From the NCBI RefSeq assembly GCF_014197915.1, contig NZ_JACIGK010000013.1, positions 62,001-126,000 on the forward strand: a DNA stretch of 64,000 bases, given 5' to 3'. Made by a program: the position numbers and the translations under genes. Below, one piece after another: positions 58,407 to 63,536 of the stretch (the first letter of the stretch is position 1; every line of letters begins with the position of its first letter). The stretch is from Roseospira visakhapatnamensis (GTDB lineage: Bacteria > Pseudomonadota > Alphaproteobacteria > Rhodospirillales > Rhodospirillaceae). Under the pieces are notes generated by a model. That model had not been told where the DNA came from. It searched no databases and was given only the letters and a program-made list of their open reading frames with translations.

Positions 58407-60101
58407 ATGTCCATGACCGACCACGCGGACCGCTTGATCATCGCCCTGGCCCAGATCAATCCCACGGTCGGCGACATCCCCGGCAACGCCGACCGCATCC
58501 GCGCCGCCCGCGCCCGGGCGGCGGCCGAGGACGCCGACCTCGTGGTGTTCCCGGAACTGTCGGTCTGCGGCTATCCGCCCGAGGATCTGGTGCTGCGCAA
58601 CGCGTTCCTGGACACGGTGCAGGCGGCTTTGCTGGCCCTGGCGGCGGAGACGGCCGACGGCGGCCCGGCGCTGCTGGTGGGCGCGCCCTGGCGCTTCACG
58701 GACCTGGACGACGACCGCCGCAAGCTGGGCAATGCCGCCCTGCTGCTGGACCGGGGCGAGATCCACTTCGTCGGCCTGAAGCATCTGCTGCCGAACTACG
58801 GAGTGTTCGACGAGGTGCGGGTGTTCTCGCGCGGGCCGCTGCCCGACGTGGTTCCGGTCAAGGGGACGCGGCTGGGCATCATGGTCTGCGAGGACATGTG
58901 GGATCCGCGCGTGTCCGCGCACCTGGCGGCCCAGGGCGCGGAACTGCTGGTGGTCATCAACGGGTCCCCCTACGAGGTCGAGAAGCCCAACCAGCGCCTG
59001 GACCACGCCCTGCCCCGGGTGGCGGAAACGGGCCTGCCATTGGTCTATGTCAACCAGGTGGGCGGACAGGACGAACTGGTGTTCGACGGCGACTCGTTCA
59101 TCGTCGCCGCCGACGGAACCCTCGCCGGCCGCCTGCCGGCCTGGCGCGAGGCCGTGGTGTCGACCGCCTGGATGCGCGCGGGCGACGGCCCGTGGCTGTG
59201 CGCCAATGCCCCGCTTGAACCGCGCGCCAGTTTCGAGGAAAGCCTCTATCGCGCCATGGTGCTGGGCTTGGCGGACTACGTGACCAAGAACGGATTCCCC
59301 GGCGTGATCCTGGGCCTGTCGGGTGGCATCGACAGCGCCTTGTCGGCGGCGGTGGCGGTCGACGCCCTGGGGCCGGAGCGGGTGTGGTGCGTCATGATGC
59401 CGTCGCGGCACACCTCCGGCCACAGCCTGGAGGACGCCGAGGGCGTCGCCCGCCTGCTGGGCGCGCGCTACGACACCGTGCCCATCACCCAGGCCATGAA
59501 CGCCTTCGACGGCATGCTGTGCGACCTGTTCGCCGGCCGTCACGCGGACGTGACCGAGGAGAACATCCAGTCGCGCCTGCGCGGCATGACGCTCATGGCG
59601 CTGTCCAACAAGTTCGGCCCCATGGTGCTATCCACGGGCAACAAGTCGGAAATGAGCGTCGGCTACGCCACCCTGTATGGCGACATGTGCGGCGGATACT
59701 CGGTGTTGAAGGACGTCTACAAGACCACGGTCGTTCAGGTCAGCCGCTGGCGCAACGACCACGGCCGGCCCGAGGGCCTGCTGGGACCGGACGGCCCGGT
59801 GATGCCCGAGCGGGTCATCACCAAGCCTCCCACGGCCGAGTTGCGCCCGGACCAGAAGGACGAGGACAGCCTGCCGCCGTACGGCGTGCTGGACGGCATC
59901 CTGCATGGCCTGATCGAGAACGAGCAGGGGGTGGCCGACCTGATCGCCGAGGGCCGCGACCCCGAGATCGTGCATCGGGTCTGGCGGCTCCTGAACGTGG
60001 CCGAGTACAAGCGCCGCCAGGCGCCTCCGGGCGTCAAGATCAGCCTGCGGGCCTTCGGCCGCGACCGGCGCTATCCCATCACCAACCGCTTCCCGGGATA
60101 G
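58407..60101 (+). CDS. nadE: Glutamine-dependent NAD+ synthetase
   Basis: This 564-residue cytosolic enzyme converts nicotinate adenine dinucleotide to NAD+, using glutamine-derived ammonia. The N-terminal nitrilase-type glutaminase has its triad at Glu50 (VVFPELSVCGYP), Lys125 (LKHLLPNYG) and Cys161 (IMVCEDMWDP). The C-terminal synthetase has the ATP-PPase loop LGLSGGIDSAL at about 305-310 and STGNKSEMSVGYATLYGDM. GAAGGAG precedes the ATG. It completes NAD salvage with pncA in the same window. The next features downstream are on the other strand. Confidence 0.96.
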   Translation: MSMTDHADRLIIALAQINPTVGDIPGNADRIRAARARAAAEDADLVVFPELSVCGYPPEDLVLRNAFLDTVQAALLALAAETADGGPALLVGAPWRFTDLDDDRRKLGNAALLLDRGEIHFVGLKHLLPNYGVFDEVRVFSRGPLPDVVPVKGTRLGIMVCEDMWDPRVSAHLAAQGAELLVVINGSPYEVEKPNQRLDHALPRVAETGLPLVYVNQVGGQDELVFDGDSFIVAADGTLAGRLPAWREAVVSTAWMRAGDGPWLCANAPLEPRASFEESLYRAMVLGLADYVTKNGFPGVILGLSGGIDSALSAAVAVDALGPERVWCVMMPSRHTSGHSLEDAEGVARLLGARYDTVPITQAMNAFDGMLCDLFAGRHADVTEENIQSRLRGMTLMALSNKFGPMVLSTGNKSEMSVGYATLYGDMCGGYSVLKDVYKTTVVQVSRWRNDHGRPEGLLGPDGPVMPERVITKPPTAELRPDQKDEDSLPPYGVLDGILHGLIENEQGVADLIAEGRDPEIVHRVWRLLNVAEYKRRQAPPGVKISLRAFGRDRRYPITNRFPG

Positions 60102-60119
60102 GTCCCGTCCCTCGCGCGC

Positions 60120-60350
60120 AAAAAAGAACCGGCGGCCCGAGGGGAGGGGCCGCCGGTTGATGTTCGACAGTCCGGCTGTGGAGGGGTCGTGATCCGTGGC
60201 TGAGGCGGATCACGGTGCCGGACCCTGAGGGTCAACAGATCTGGCTGTCAGGATCGCGTGCTCGTGGAGGAGACTTGATCTGAAGGGTTGCCATGAGGTC
60301 CATTGATGGCGGGCCGTGTCGTGCCCACCGTTGATATCCCGACTATCGTA
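60120..60350 (-). ncRNA. Small RNA candidate 1 of a tandem pair
   Basis: On the minus strand an intrinsic terminator (12-bp perfect stem, arms 60127-60138 and 60147-60158, loop CTCCCCTC, six T at 60125-60120) ends a ~230-base unit. No reading frame fits. It shares with the unit at 60518-60765 an identical 16-mer GGGCACGACACGGCCC (60326-60311), a GTCTCCTCCAC-like block (about 60274-60264), a CCCCTCCAC block (60186-60178), CAGCCACG between stem arms and the same terminator. A 9-bp hairpin (60188-60196/60206-60214) precedes the CCCCTCC linker. CCUCC and CUCCCC motifs are anti-Shine-Dalgarno-like. The 5' end is estimated. Confidence 0.6.
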
Positions 60351-60517
60351 CTCGGGCACTTACCGGAGTCCTACCGGATTATGAAAAGTCTGTCATAGTT
60401 CTAATGCGCAGCGGTGACCAGCGCCGGCGCCGGATGTGGCGCTTCCCTGACGTCGCCCCCCGCTGCCCAGCCGCCCGGCCGCCGCGACCACGCCGACGCC
60501 TCCACGCTCGCCACAGC

Positions 60518-60765
60518 AAAACAGAAAACCGGCGGCCCGAGGGGAGGGGCCGCCGGTTTTCTGAATTGGAACCCAATCGTGGAGGGGATCGCGACACGTG
60601 GCTGAAGCGCATCGCAGGGTGGGATGGGGTTCGCGGAGGGTCGGATTGGCTGACGATGCTCGAAGGGCTGGAAGACGGTGGCCGTGTGGAGGGACTGTCC
60701 TCGGATCGGTTGGCGCGAAGGGGCTGGGGCCGTGTCGTGCCCGCTGTTTGATGATGAGAGAATGA
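60518..60765 (-). ncRNA. Small RNA candidate 2 of a tandem pair
   Basis: This is the paralogue of the unit at 60120-60350. Its terminator has a perfect 17-bp stem (60522-60538 and 60547-60563) with the same 8-base loop CTCCCCTC, followed on the minus strand by TTTT. It has the same 16-mer GGGCACGACACGGCCC at 60742-60727, GTCCCTCCAC at about 60695-60686 and CCCCTCCAC at 60587-60579, in the same order and similar spacing. The internal hairpin is less perfect than in copy 1. It lies between ftsK and copy 1. The 5' end is an estimate; a weak promoter-like TTGCGG lies near 60780. Confidence 0.6.
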
Positions 60766-60888
60766 CAGACCTCACCTTGCCGCAAGCCTGCGGGCACATG
60801 AACCGTTTGTCATTCTTCCGGGCGGCCCTGGCGAGGCGGCGACGCCCACCCGGGACGGCATGATCTCCCTCAAGACATGGTCTCCCTC

Positions 60889-60930
60889 AAAAAAAACCGC
60901 CGTTCCCGGGAGGCAACTCGGGAACGGCGG
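60889..60930 (-). terminator. Intrinsic terminator downstream of ftsK
   Basis: On the minus strand a perfect 12-bp stem (60919-60930 and 60897-60908) with loop AGTTGCCTCC is followed directly by eight T (60896-60889). It is about 190 bases after the ftsK stop, so the ftsK message has a long 3' untranslated region. The loop again contains CCTCC, like the two small RNA candidates downstream. Confidence 0.85.
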
Positions 60931-61121
60931 CAAGGGGCGCCTCGGGCGCCATCCTTGACGGTGGCGGACCCCGCGACGATACAGATCTGACGGTCCGTCC
61001 GGCCCCCCGACCCGCAGGCCGTGCGGCGCGGGCTCAGGGCACCAGACTCACCTTCCTGCGAGGTCCGGTCCTTCCCGGACGGCATGCGAGGGCGCATCCG
61101 GACCAGGGCGGCGGGTGTCGA

Positions 61122-63536
61122 TCAGGCGGCCTCCTCCGGCAACAGCACCTCGCGCTTGCCCACATGGTTGGCGCGGCCCACCATGCCTTCCTTCTCCATG
61201 CGTTCGATGATGCGCGCGGCGCGGTTGTAGCCGATCTGAAGATGGCGCTGGACGAAACTGGTGGACGCCTTGCGTTCCCGGGCCACCAGGGCCACGGCCC
61301 GATCGAACAAGGGGTCGTGGCCGGTCGCGGCCGCGCCGCCGCCGCCCTCGGCGCCCTCGCCGGCCGTGTCCTCGTCGTCCACGGTGACCGCGTCCACATA
61401 GTCGGGACCGCCCCCCTGCCCCCGCAGATGATCGCAGATGCGCTCCACCTCCTCGTCGGACACGAATGGTCCGTGCACGCGGGTAATGCGGCCGCCGGCG
61501 GCCATGTAGAGCATGTCGCCCTGACCCAGAAGCTGCTCGGCGCCCTGCTCGCCCAGCACGGTGCGGCTGTCGATCTTGCTGGTCACCTGGAAGCTGACGC
61601 GGGTCGGGAAGTTGGCCTTGATGGTGCCGGTGATGACGTCGACGGAGGGGCGCTGCGTGGCCATGATCAGGTGGATCCCGGCGGCCCGGGCCATCTGCGC
61701 GAGTCGCTGGATGGCGGCCTCCACCTCCTTGCCGGCGACCAGCATCAGGTCGGCCATCTCGTCGACGACGATCACCAGGTTGGGCAGGGGCCGCAGGTCC
61801 ATGGCCTGCTGTTCGTAGACCGGCTCGCCGGTCTCGGGATCGAAGCCGGTCTGCACCGTGCGCACCACGGGACCGCCCTCGGCGAGCGCCTTCTCGACCT
61901 TCTGGTTGAAGCCCTGAATATTGCGCACGCCCATCTGGCTCATGGCCCGATAGCGGTTCTCCATCTCCTTGACCGCCCACTTGAGCGCCACCACCGCCTT
62001 GCCGGGATCGGTGACCACGGGGGTCAGCAGATGGGGGATGGCGTCGTAGGCGGACAGTTCCAGCATCTTGGGGTCGATCAGGATCAGGCGGCAGCGTTCC
62101 GGCGGCAGCCGGTACAGCAGCGACAGGATCATGGCGTTGACGGCCACCGACTTGCCCGAACCGGTGGTGCCGGCGATCAGCATATGCGGCATGCGCGACA
62201 GGTCGGCGAAGACGGGGCCGCCGCCGATGTCGCGACCCAGGGCCAGGGTCAGCGCCAGGTCCCCCTTGGCGAAGCCCTCGGTGGCCAGCAGTTCCCGCAG
62301 GTTCACGCCCTGGCGGCGCGCGTTGGGAAGCTCGATGCCGATGACGCTCTTGCCGGGGATGACGGCGATGCGCACCGACACCGCGCTCATGGCGCGGGCG
62401 ATGTCGTCGGCCAGGCCGATGATGCGCGCGGTCTTGATGCCCGGCGCCGGCTCCAGTTCGTACAGGGTGACCACCGGGCCGGGGCGCACGCGTACGATCT
62501 CGCCCTTGATCCCGTAGTCGCTCAGCACGCCCTCCAGCAGGCGGGCGTTGTTGGCCAGCGCCTCCTCGTTGATGCGGCGCTGGGTCTCGGTGGCGCGCGG
62601 CGGACTGAGCAGGTCCAGCGGCGGCAACGGGCCCCCTTCGGCATCCTCCGCCGGATCCGGAAACAGGCTGCCCTGGCGGGCGCGCAGGGTCTCGCGGGCG
62701 CCCTGGGCCGCCGGCGGACGAGCGGGCGCCTCGACGACGGCGCGCCGGGCGCGTCCGGACGCGGGAGCCGCCGGCGCCGGATCGGACAGCATGACAGGCG
62801 GCGCGGCGGGCTCGTCCTCCAGGACGGGTTCGTGGCGCAGGCGCGCCAGACCGGACCGCGCCAGGGCGGACAGACCGGCCGCCAGGGCGATGGGCGCCCA
62901 CAGGGCGGCGAGCAGCCGCCGGCCCGTGGCCAGCAGACCGGCGCGGGCCTCGCGGAGATGGCCCCAGCGCAGCCCCAGGGCGACGATGGCCAGCCAGGCG
63001 CCCAGAACGCCGGCCACCGCCGCCGGCACCAGATCCCAGGAACCGTCGGGCGCGACCTCGGCCAGGCCGTGCAGGCTCCAGGCCAGCAGCACGCTCCCCA
63101 GGATCCCCCCGGGGCCGGCATGGGTGGGCCAGGTGGTCGCCGGCGACAGGCCCGCCACGGCAAGCGCCAGCAGGGGCAGCGCGAGAGCGAGGATCGCCGG
63201 ACGCCACGGGGAACCCTTGATCGGGTCGCCGGTCAGCAGCCGCAGGCTCCATACGCCCAGGGCCAGCACCGCCAGCACCGCCCCCAGGCCCAGCGTCTGC
63301 CAGGCCAGGTCGGCCAGCACGGCGCCGGCGGGGCCCATCATGTTCAACGGGCGCTCGGGGCTGGCCACGTTCCAGGAAGGATCGGTGGGATAGTGGGTCA
63401 GGAGGGCCGCCGCCGTGCCCATGGCGACGCCCAGCGTCACCAGGCCGAGCGCGCGACGCCCGCCGCATGCCAGGGCCCGGGCGAGATCGGGTGGCAGGAA
63501 TGGTGTCCGGTGCCGGGCCACGGCGCTTTTCGTCAT
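61122..63536 (-). CDS. ftsK: DNA translocase FtsK
   Basis: This 804-residue septum-linked DNA pump resolves and segregates chromosome termini at division. The N-terminal ~210 residues hold four membrane segments. A Pro/Ala-rich linker follows, then the motor with Walker [16 protein letters not shown], Walker [14 protein letters not shown] and [16 protein letters not shown]. The C-terminal gamma winged helix ([26 protein letters not shown] in parts) would read KOPS sequences. The short linker is typical of alphaproteobacteria. The start ATG at 63536 agrees with the family. An AT-rich promoter region lies upstream. Confidence 0.96.

Follow-up and report, generated by a model that had tools for sequence, protein, structure and literature searches.

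Tandem predicted sRNA genes between nadE and an FtsK-type gene of Roseospira visakhapatnamensis as candidate members of a genus-wide RNA family behind one promoter box

The intergenic gap between nadE and an FtsK-type gene of the purple marine bacterium Roseospira visakhapatnamensis houses two minus-strand units, A and B, which are alike in their elements, in the order of these elements, in structure and in the terminator loop. Do these units form a pair of regulatory RNAs, as the original prediction from the sequence suggested, or are they parts of a larger system? The window analyzed is a stretch of 64,000 nt (G000:C13:62001-126000, plus strand), where G000 denotes this genome; G001 to G005 are the other Roseospira genomes. 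The NAD+ synthase gene nadE (58407-60101, plus strand) matches the model NF010588 with 768 bits against a cut-off of 479, and the FtsK-type gene (61122-63536, minus strand) matches NF007615 with 577.5 bits, which is under the cut-off of 1566. A tRNA and tmRNA search of the window found none.

Parts and structure of the two units

The two units and their surroundings contain the following features, with the start sites of A and B taken from the −10 pattern alone:

60889-60931, minus strand: hairpin followed by eight T after ftsK, between ftsK and unit A; from sequence reading, absent from the terminator-scan list
60775-60813, minus strand: promoter box of unit A, from six upstream regions aligned without gaps; match to promoter model R2 with E = 3.1e-12 (A in the training set)
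60759-60764, minus strand: −10-like hexamer CATTCT of unit A, predicted from columns 54-59 of promoter alignment A3
60518-60752, minus strand: predicted sRNA A, about 235 nt; putative start 7 bases past the −10 hexamer, end at the terminator
60727-60742, minus strand: identical 16-mer GGGCACGACACGGCCC, copy A, close to the 5′ end; by reading and script
60686-60693, minus strand: CCCUCCAC block (DNA CCCTCCAC), copy A; by reading and script
60590-60616, minus strand: hairpin with loop CUUCAGCCA, copy A; predicted fold and pair comparison
60579-60587, minus strand: CCCCUCCAC (DNA CCCCTCCAC), copy A, single-stranded in the predicted fold
60522-60563, minus strand: terminator A, 17-pair stem, loop CUCCCCUC; terminator scan
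60358-60396, minus strand: promoter box of unit B, from six upstream regions aligned without gaps; R2 match with E = 9.9e-12 (B in the training set)
60342-60347, minus strand: −10-like hexamer GATAGT of unit B, predicted from the promoter alignment
60120-60335, minus strand: predicted sRNA B, about 216 nt; putative start, end at the terminator
60311-60326, minus strand: identical 16-mer GGGCACGACACGGCCC, copy B; by reading and script
60264-60271, minus strand: UCCUCCAC block (DNA TCCTCCAC), copy B; by reading and script
60188-60214, minus strand: hairpin with loop CCUCAGCCA, copy B; predicted fold and pair comparison
60178-60186, minus strand: CCCCUCCAC (DNA CCCCTCCAC), copy B, single-stranded in the predicted fold
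60127-60158, minus strand: terminator B, 12-pair stem, loop CUCCCCUC; terminator scan

The shared elements named in the original prediction, that is, the 16-mer, the C-rich blocks and the terminator loop, were all located by reading and by script. The copies of GGGCACGACACGGCCC in A and B are the only two on the minus strand of the window, and the terminator loop CTCCCCTC is identical at 60539-60546 (A) and 60139-60146 (B). A terminator scan of 2,201 bases returned three sites, one of them nested inside another, compared with a mean of 0.9 for shuffled sequence. When the region 60115-60420 was compared with its own genome by blastn, it matched A with E = 5.6e-11 (77% over 98 bases). The paralogy of A and B extends upstream of 60765, up to the promoter box.

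The predicted folds of A and B each beat 200 of 200 shuffles (z of −5.20 and −4.64). The best-conserved structure is the inner 27-base hairpin just 5′ of CCCCUCCAC, which carries CYUCAGCCACG and is not named in the original prediction. Between A and B, two of its nine pairs are changed on both sides and two on one side, and none is broken; together with the terminators, whose stems have 17 pairs in A and 12 in B, these changes bear out the compensated stem differences noted at the outset.

Around nadE in G001 to G005, no UCAGCCACG was found in up to 1,500 bases on each side (about 190 bases after nadE in G002), and the DNA 3′ of nadE in G003, G004 and G005 contains no A/B-like unit. Conservation, therefore, does not extend to the position beside nadE.

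The promoter box and the RNA family in Roseospira

From the 3′ halves of A and B, a covariance model (R1) was built and run over 60 genomes. It gave a match at E ≤ 10 in 36 of the 60, and terminator look-alikes made up most of the ten alignments shown. Two alignments from G004 showed UCAGCCAC, and the best foreign match (G004:C146, E = 1.8e-5) had two UCAGCCACG hairpins as well as the 15-mer CATTCTCTCATCATC of the promoter region of A. Six upstream regions (A, B, two from G004, and one each from G005 and G002) align without gaps over 76 columns. Their common layout is ATKAM-N6-KTMAT, followed by a G-rich, CGG-like part, GYHA and a −10-like hexamer with A in the second and T in the last position. 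The promoter box common to A and B comprises 39 bp, and 10 bases separate its end from the −10 hexamer downstream. No good −35 element was seen in the aligned promoters and, therefore, the promoter is probably activator-dependent.

A sequence-only promoter model (R2) was then trained on A, B and the four relatives. These six sequences match R2 by construction because they are in the training set; the degP and regulator matches described below are outside it. In searches of more than 40 genomes, stricter filters applied, and weak matches were lost. R2 found matches in all six Roseospira genomes, with up to seven sites per genome at E ≤ 0.01. Thirty stretches were scored, and 390 bases were inspected from each site; the 30 distinct promoter sites in the six genomes were turned into a weight matrix (L223, with E = 8e-4, is counted among these sites and is absent from the unit table). 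Some of the sites are arranged in tandem arrays, namely three on G003:C35, three plus a weaker fourth on G003:C4, and four on G002:C35.

In 28 of the 31 listed units, which are about 76 to 362 nt long, a terminator was found by script; L209, L230 and L233, for which the script found none, are outside all counts given for 28 units. The motif UCAGCCACG is present in 23 of the 31 units, once in 12 of them, twice in seven, three times in two and four times in two, and is missing from the remaining eight. A and B have one UCAGCCA hairpin apiece, and the units of G005 and the short RNAs have none. Thus, with up to seven promoter sites per relative genome at that threshold and a varying number of hairpins, the "regulatory pair" of the original prediction was too small a description, while its claim of tandem paralogous sRNA genes is backed by the structure, the promoter boxes, the terminators and the genus-wide family. 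A and B seem to be part of an undescribed family of RNAs that occurs in multiple copies and is built on one repeated hairpin.

The 40 places at which the hairpin occurs represent 34 distinct 45-mers and 26 distinct 19-mers. Across the distinct hairpins, the loop reads CYUCAGCCA, with two cases of TYUCAGCCA. Among the 26 distinct 19-mers, UCAGCCA and the two closing pairs are invariant, and the two pairs after these change in ways that mostly preserve pairing; the third pair is broken in two and the fourth in seven of the 26. The covariation score of the hairpin, computed from these 19-mers, is 0.468, compared with 0.105 for shuffled and at most 0.097 for slid controls, and there are 21 doubly changed cells compared with 6.9 ± 2.3 in shuffled data. 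In G000 to G005, CGCYTCAGCCACG was counted 2, 3, 4, 18, 17 and 1 times, and its reversed control 1, 0, 0, 3, 1 and 2 times; in the other 54 genomes, the counts were 40 and 46, respectively. The enrichment is clear in G001 to G004; G000 has the motif in A and B only, and G005 shows no enrichment. At the level of sequence, the hairpin family is restricted to the genus among these 60 genomes.

Two further kinds of putative RNA lie behind the same box. A second, short type of about 76 nt with the terminator loop UCCCCC was found in G000, G001, G002 and G004 (for example, L227 at G000:C24:35935-35995, and also L210, L221, L224 and L233), and a relative of this type in G005 adjoins a degP gene. A third type has a long C-rich body (L207, L209, L229, L230 and L231); two of these, L209 and L231, present the loop UCAGCCAC on another stem, GGAC/GUCC.

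C-rich motifs, possible targets and the box outside the genus

CCUCC occurs 47 times in the 28 units, compared with 21.0 ± 4.4 times in shuffled sequences, an enrichment that is inflated by the kinship of the units; at least one CCUCC is present in 22 of the 28. The complementary GGAGG does not occur in these units, compared with 5.9 occurrences after shuffling. Because CCUCC is enriched and GGAGG is absent, an anti-Shine-Dalgarno role is plausible. In addition, the terminator loops of many units are C-rich, and these features are consistent with sRNAs that would cover ribosome-binding sites. The homologues in the relatives have both the CCUCC motifs and the covariation in the hairpin, in line with the original prediction.

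Porin mRNAs were examined as possible targets at nine of the ten porin loci, the partial locus L331 being left out. Among 47 sRNA-porin pairs, three had z ≤ −2 where about one is expected, which is not clearly above chance; B accounts for two of these, one with each of the two porins in its own genome. B holds CCAGAUCUGUU (60234-60244), a perfect 11-nt complement to the leader of porin L326 (G000:C24:70906-72063). The porins of the genus (L322 to L330) have nearly alike starts (GAGAGGAG followed by ATG, with signal peptides of the MKK-LFG-TAL type) and differing leaders.

For the hairpin loop, inspection by eye of this genome, with guessed gene starts, gave no clear case of a 10-nt loop complement at a start codon; therefore, a simple antisense action of the loop is not favoured. 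As another possible loop partner, we considered the D-arm of tRNA-Ser. GTGGCTGARG occurs at 21 places, two of which are A and B themselves; the other 19 loci were scanned, none contained a tRNA gene, and this candidate was rejected.

The box was also searched for in 225 genomes of the order, each at least 90% complete. At E ≤ 0.003, R2 matched in 13 of these genomes, that is, in five Roseospira and eight others, and all eight non-genus matches are located upstream of degP/HtrA (five) or of response-regulator operons (three). DegP/HtrA-type proteases follow the box in G207, G045, G241, G053 and G134. In G170 and G179, the box is followed by a response regulator and a kinase, and in G035 by a PepSY-domain gene and a response regulator, inside which the sequenced stretch examined ends. 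In smaller searches, the box sites of G042, G017 and G034 precede degP, and that of G020 (E = 0.03) precedes a regulator/kinase operon. Among the eight non-genus matches at E ≤ 0.03 in a search of 73 genomes of the family, those of G035, G017 and G034 fit the degP/regulator pattern, the degP site of G034 falling in the weaker range of E from 0.0073 to 0.03. In the same range, G076 has a cut-off frame that by eye resembles the N-terminus of DegP and has no Pfam match, and neither a degP nor a regulator gene was seen for G085, G090, G011 and G031. The loci with the box before degP/HtrA-type and CusR-like regulator genes are L214, L219, L225, L240, L353, L354, L355 and L358; L235, L237, L356 and L357.

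The regulators encoded behind the box share 68-74% identity with an OmpR-family, CusR/CopR-like regulator of R. visakhapatnamensis (G000:C6:29629-30297), which is followed by a histidine kinase gene and scores 265.9 bits, under the curated cut-off of 279.2 for the heavy-metal regulator family. An orthologue is present in five of the six Roseospira genomes and was not found in G005, which is 88% complete. The layout of the box, ATGAC-N6-GTCAT, presumably resembles that of the CusR box. Across several genera, the box looks like the mark of an order-wide envelope-stress regulon. Within Roseospira, the box did not serve as a protease promoter at any of 25 Trypsin_2 loci; the sole match among them, L275, is the box of the short sRNA beside degP in G005. 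Among the regulator loci of the genus, only that of G000 has a box, which is partial, reversed and weak (score 8.1). A matrix score of at least 8 was reached at 18 of 2.03 million scanned positions, seven of which are sRNA sites.

Envelope-stress siblings and alternative readings

The reading that we rank first, and which we hold with about even confidence, places A and B in an envelope-stress two-component regulon as trans-acting sibling sRNAs that repress envelope mRNAs by C-rich pairing. Each sRNA gene would be expressed from a regulated promoter of its own and end in an intrinsic terminator, and A and B would be two members of a multi-copy Roseospira family that shares one box and has mostly one to four UCAGCCA hairpins. 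The box would be the operator of the CusR/CopR-like regulator, whose relatives elsewhere in the order sit, like degP, behind the same box. Envelope or metal stress may lead this regulator to bind the box in Roseospira and to switch the sRNAs on, presumably acting as an activator rather than as a repressor. The sRNAs, transcribed from the predicted start sites, would in turn block the translation of mRNAs, most likely those for envelope proteins, with exposed CCUCC and UCCCC stretches pairing with ribosome-binding sites. The eight non-genus matches at E ≤ 0.003, all of them before degP-type genes or regulator operons, speak for the regulon. The thinner evidence within Roseospira itself, the mixed matches at weaker E, the score of the regulator under its cut-off and the porin result speak against it.

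The wiring closest to this proposal is that of OmrA and OmrB of E. coli, an analogy for which no sequence relation is claimed. According to PMC12559287, these are tandem siblings in one intergenic region that are induced by an OmpR-family regulator and repress outer-membrane proteins. A and B are likewise tandem sibling genes, each with a terminator and a promoter with a predicted start; unlike the Omr pair, the Roseospira RNAs have several copies per genome, a repeated internal hairpin, C-rich motifs and a CusR/CopR-like candidate regulator. NmsR_A and NmsR_B of Neisseria are also tandem siblings with anti-Shine-Dalgarno motifs and about 70% identity (PMC5362039), but they belong to another phylum class, have no repeated hairpin and are RelA-controlled. 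SisA-D (alpha-R8) of Caulobacter are sibling sRNAs that share a 10-mer core (PMC12559287) and lack a common promoter motif, whereas what unites the Roseospira family is its promoter box; moreover, SisA-D neighbour an FGase gene, and A and B neighbour nadE and the FtsK gene.

Ranked second is a decoy function, in which the UCAGCCA hairpins would bind a protein or another RNA that the family titrates, the C-rich stretches being secondary; we regard this as possible though unlikely. It would agree with a loop that is invariant while the stems covary, with hairpin numbers from zero to four within one regulon, with the concentration of the motif in these units and with the missing antisense partner of the loop. 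However, A and B each have a single hairpin, the G005 units and the short RNAs have none, no protein partner is known, and the CCUCC enrichment and the C-rich terminator loops are left unexplained. A specific form, in which genus-specific, fast-duplicating hairpin RNAs titrate an alphaproteobacterial protein that recognises CYUCAGCCA and are induced by the degP-linked envelope-stress two-component system, we judge rather unlikely. The CsrB/RsmZ sponges present one loop motif on a variable number of hairpins and titrate CsrA. Together with alpha-r14, CsrB-type RNAs are the closest in architecture; 23 of the 31 units have one to four hairpins with one loop (A and B one each). The loop motif of the sponges is GGA, in contrast to CYUCAGCCA; A has a single GGA and B has three, all located outside the UCAGCCA loop.

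Returning to antisense siblings, one may ask whether they belong to a known alphaproteobacterial anti-Shine-Dalgarno family, alpha-r14/NfeR1 or CcsR/cuckoo, which the original prediction had offered as examples. CcsR1-4 (cuckoo) are tandem homologous sRNAs with CCUCC-type motifs from a photosynthetic alphaproteobacterium; A and B differ from them in lacking CCUCCUCCC and in their neighbours. Alpha-r14 RNAs, as described in PMC10746234 and PMC3927594, have three hairpins, each with CCUCCUCCC unpaired, and vary in their stems while the C-rich anti-Shine-Dalgarno motif is kept. The family described here resembles them as a set of candidate alphaproteobacterial sRNAs with several hairpins, varying stems and a kept motif, but the invariant loop is CYUCAGCCA, not CCUCCUCCC. 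With Rfam 15, no match reached the gathering score in the window or in 12 related loci. In a permissive scan, ar14 (RF02344) was the best alphaproteobacterial name for both units, and the whole model was matched; however, A and B scored 24.4 and 21.3 bits, less than half of the gathering score of 58.8, and for CcsR1 (RF02791) 13.4 and 12.6 bits against 65.3. Furthermore, none of the 28 units checked, A and B included, contains CCUCCUCCC (a CCTCCTCCC count of 0 in each). Membership in either family is very improbable and, on these comparisons, mostly refuted. MicroRNA and other names in the permissive scan, all below gathering, were dismissed.

A coding role, with the units as short mRNAs that specify small proteins, is more improbable still. 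Most units do hold open frames, of up to 77 codons, and minus-strand frames of 77, 132 and 134 aa, all extending past A, overlap this unit. However, the longest sense frames within the predicted transcripts, 30 codons in A and 36 in B, are dissimilar, as originally claimed; most unit frames are open at the terminator, two units are without any frame, and the changes track base pairing and not codons. No minus-strand frame of at least 60 aa lies wholly inside B. Equally improbable are REP-like repeats lying between genes by chance. One palindrome does occur in multiple copies and tandem arrays, but 36 of its 42 places in G001 to G004 are within box-bearing loci, the rate elsewhere equals that of the reversed control, and the array copies retain box, body and terminator as a set.

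In the open-access literature, which leaves subscription papers mostly outside the search, we found no paper on an sRNA in Roseospira and none that brings together four of the subjects degP, CusR, alphaproteobacteria, operator and sRNA. In enteric bacteria, sigma-E and OmpR have RNA arms. The family in Roseospira would add an RNA arm attached to the degP/two-component box that is found across the order. It would also be a concrete case of the multiplication of bacterial sRNA genes with one operator and one invariant hairpin loop, in which the number of hairpins and the number of gene copies change between close species. The invariant loop may serve as a ready bait for a new class of targets or a new RNA-binding protein and, if the decoy reading were true, the family would be comparable to CsrB, with a new protein as its partner.
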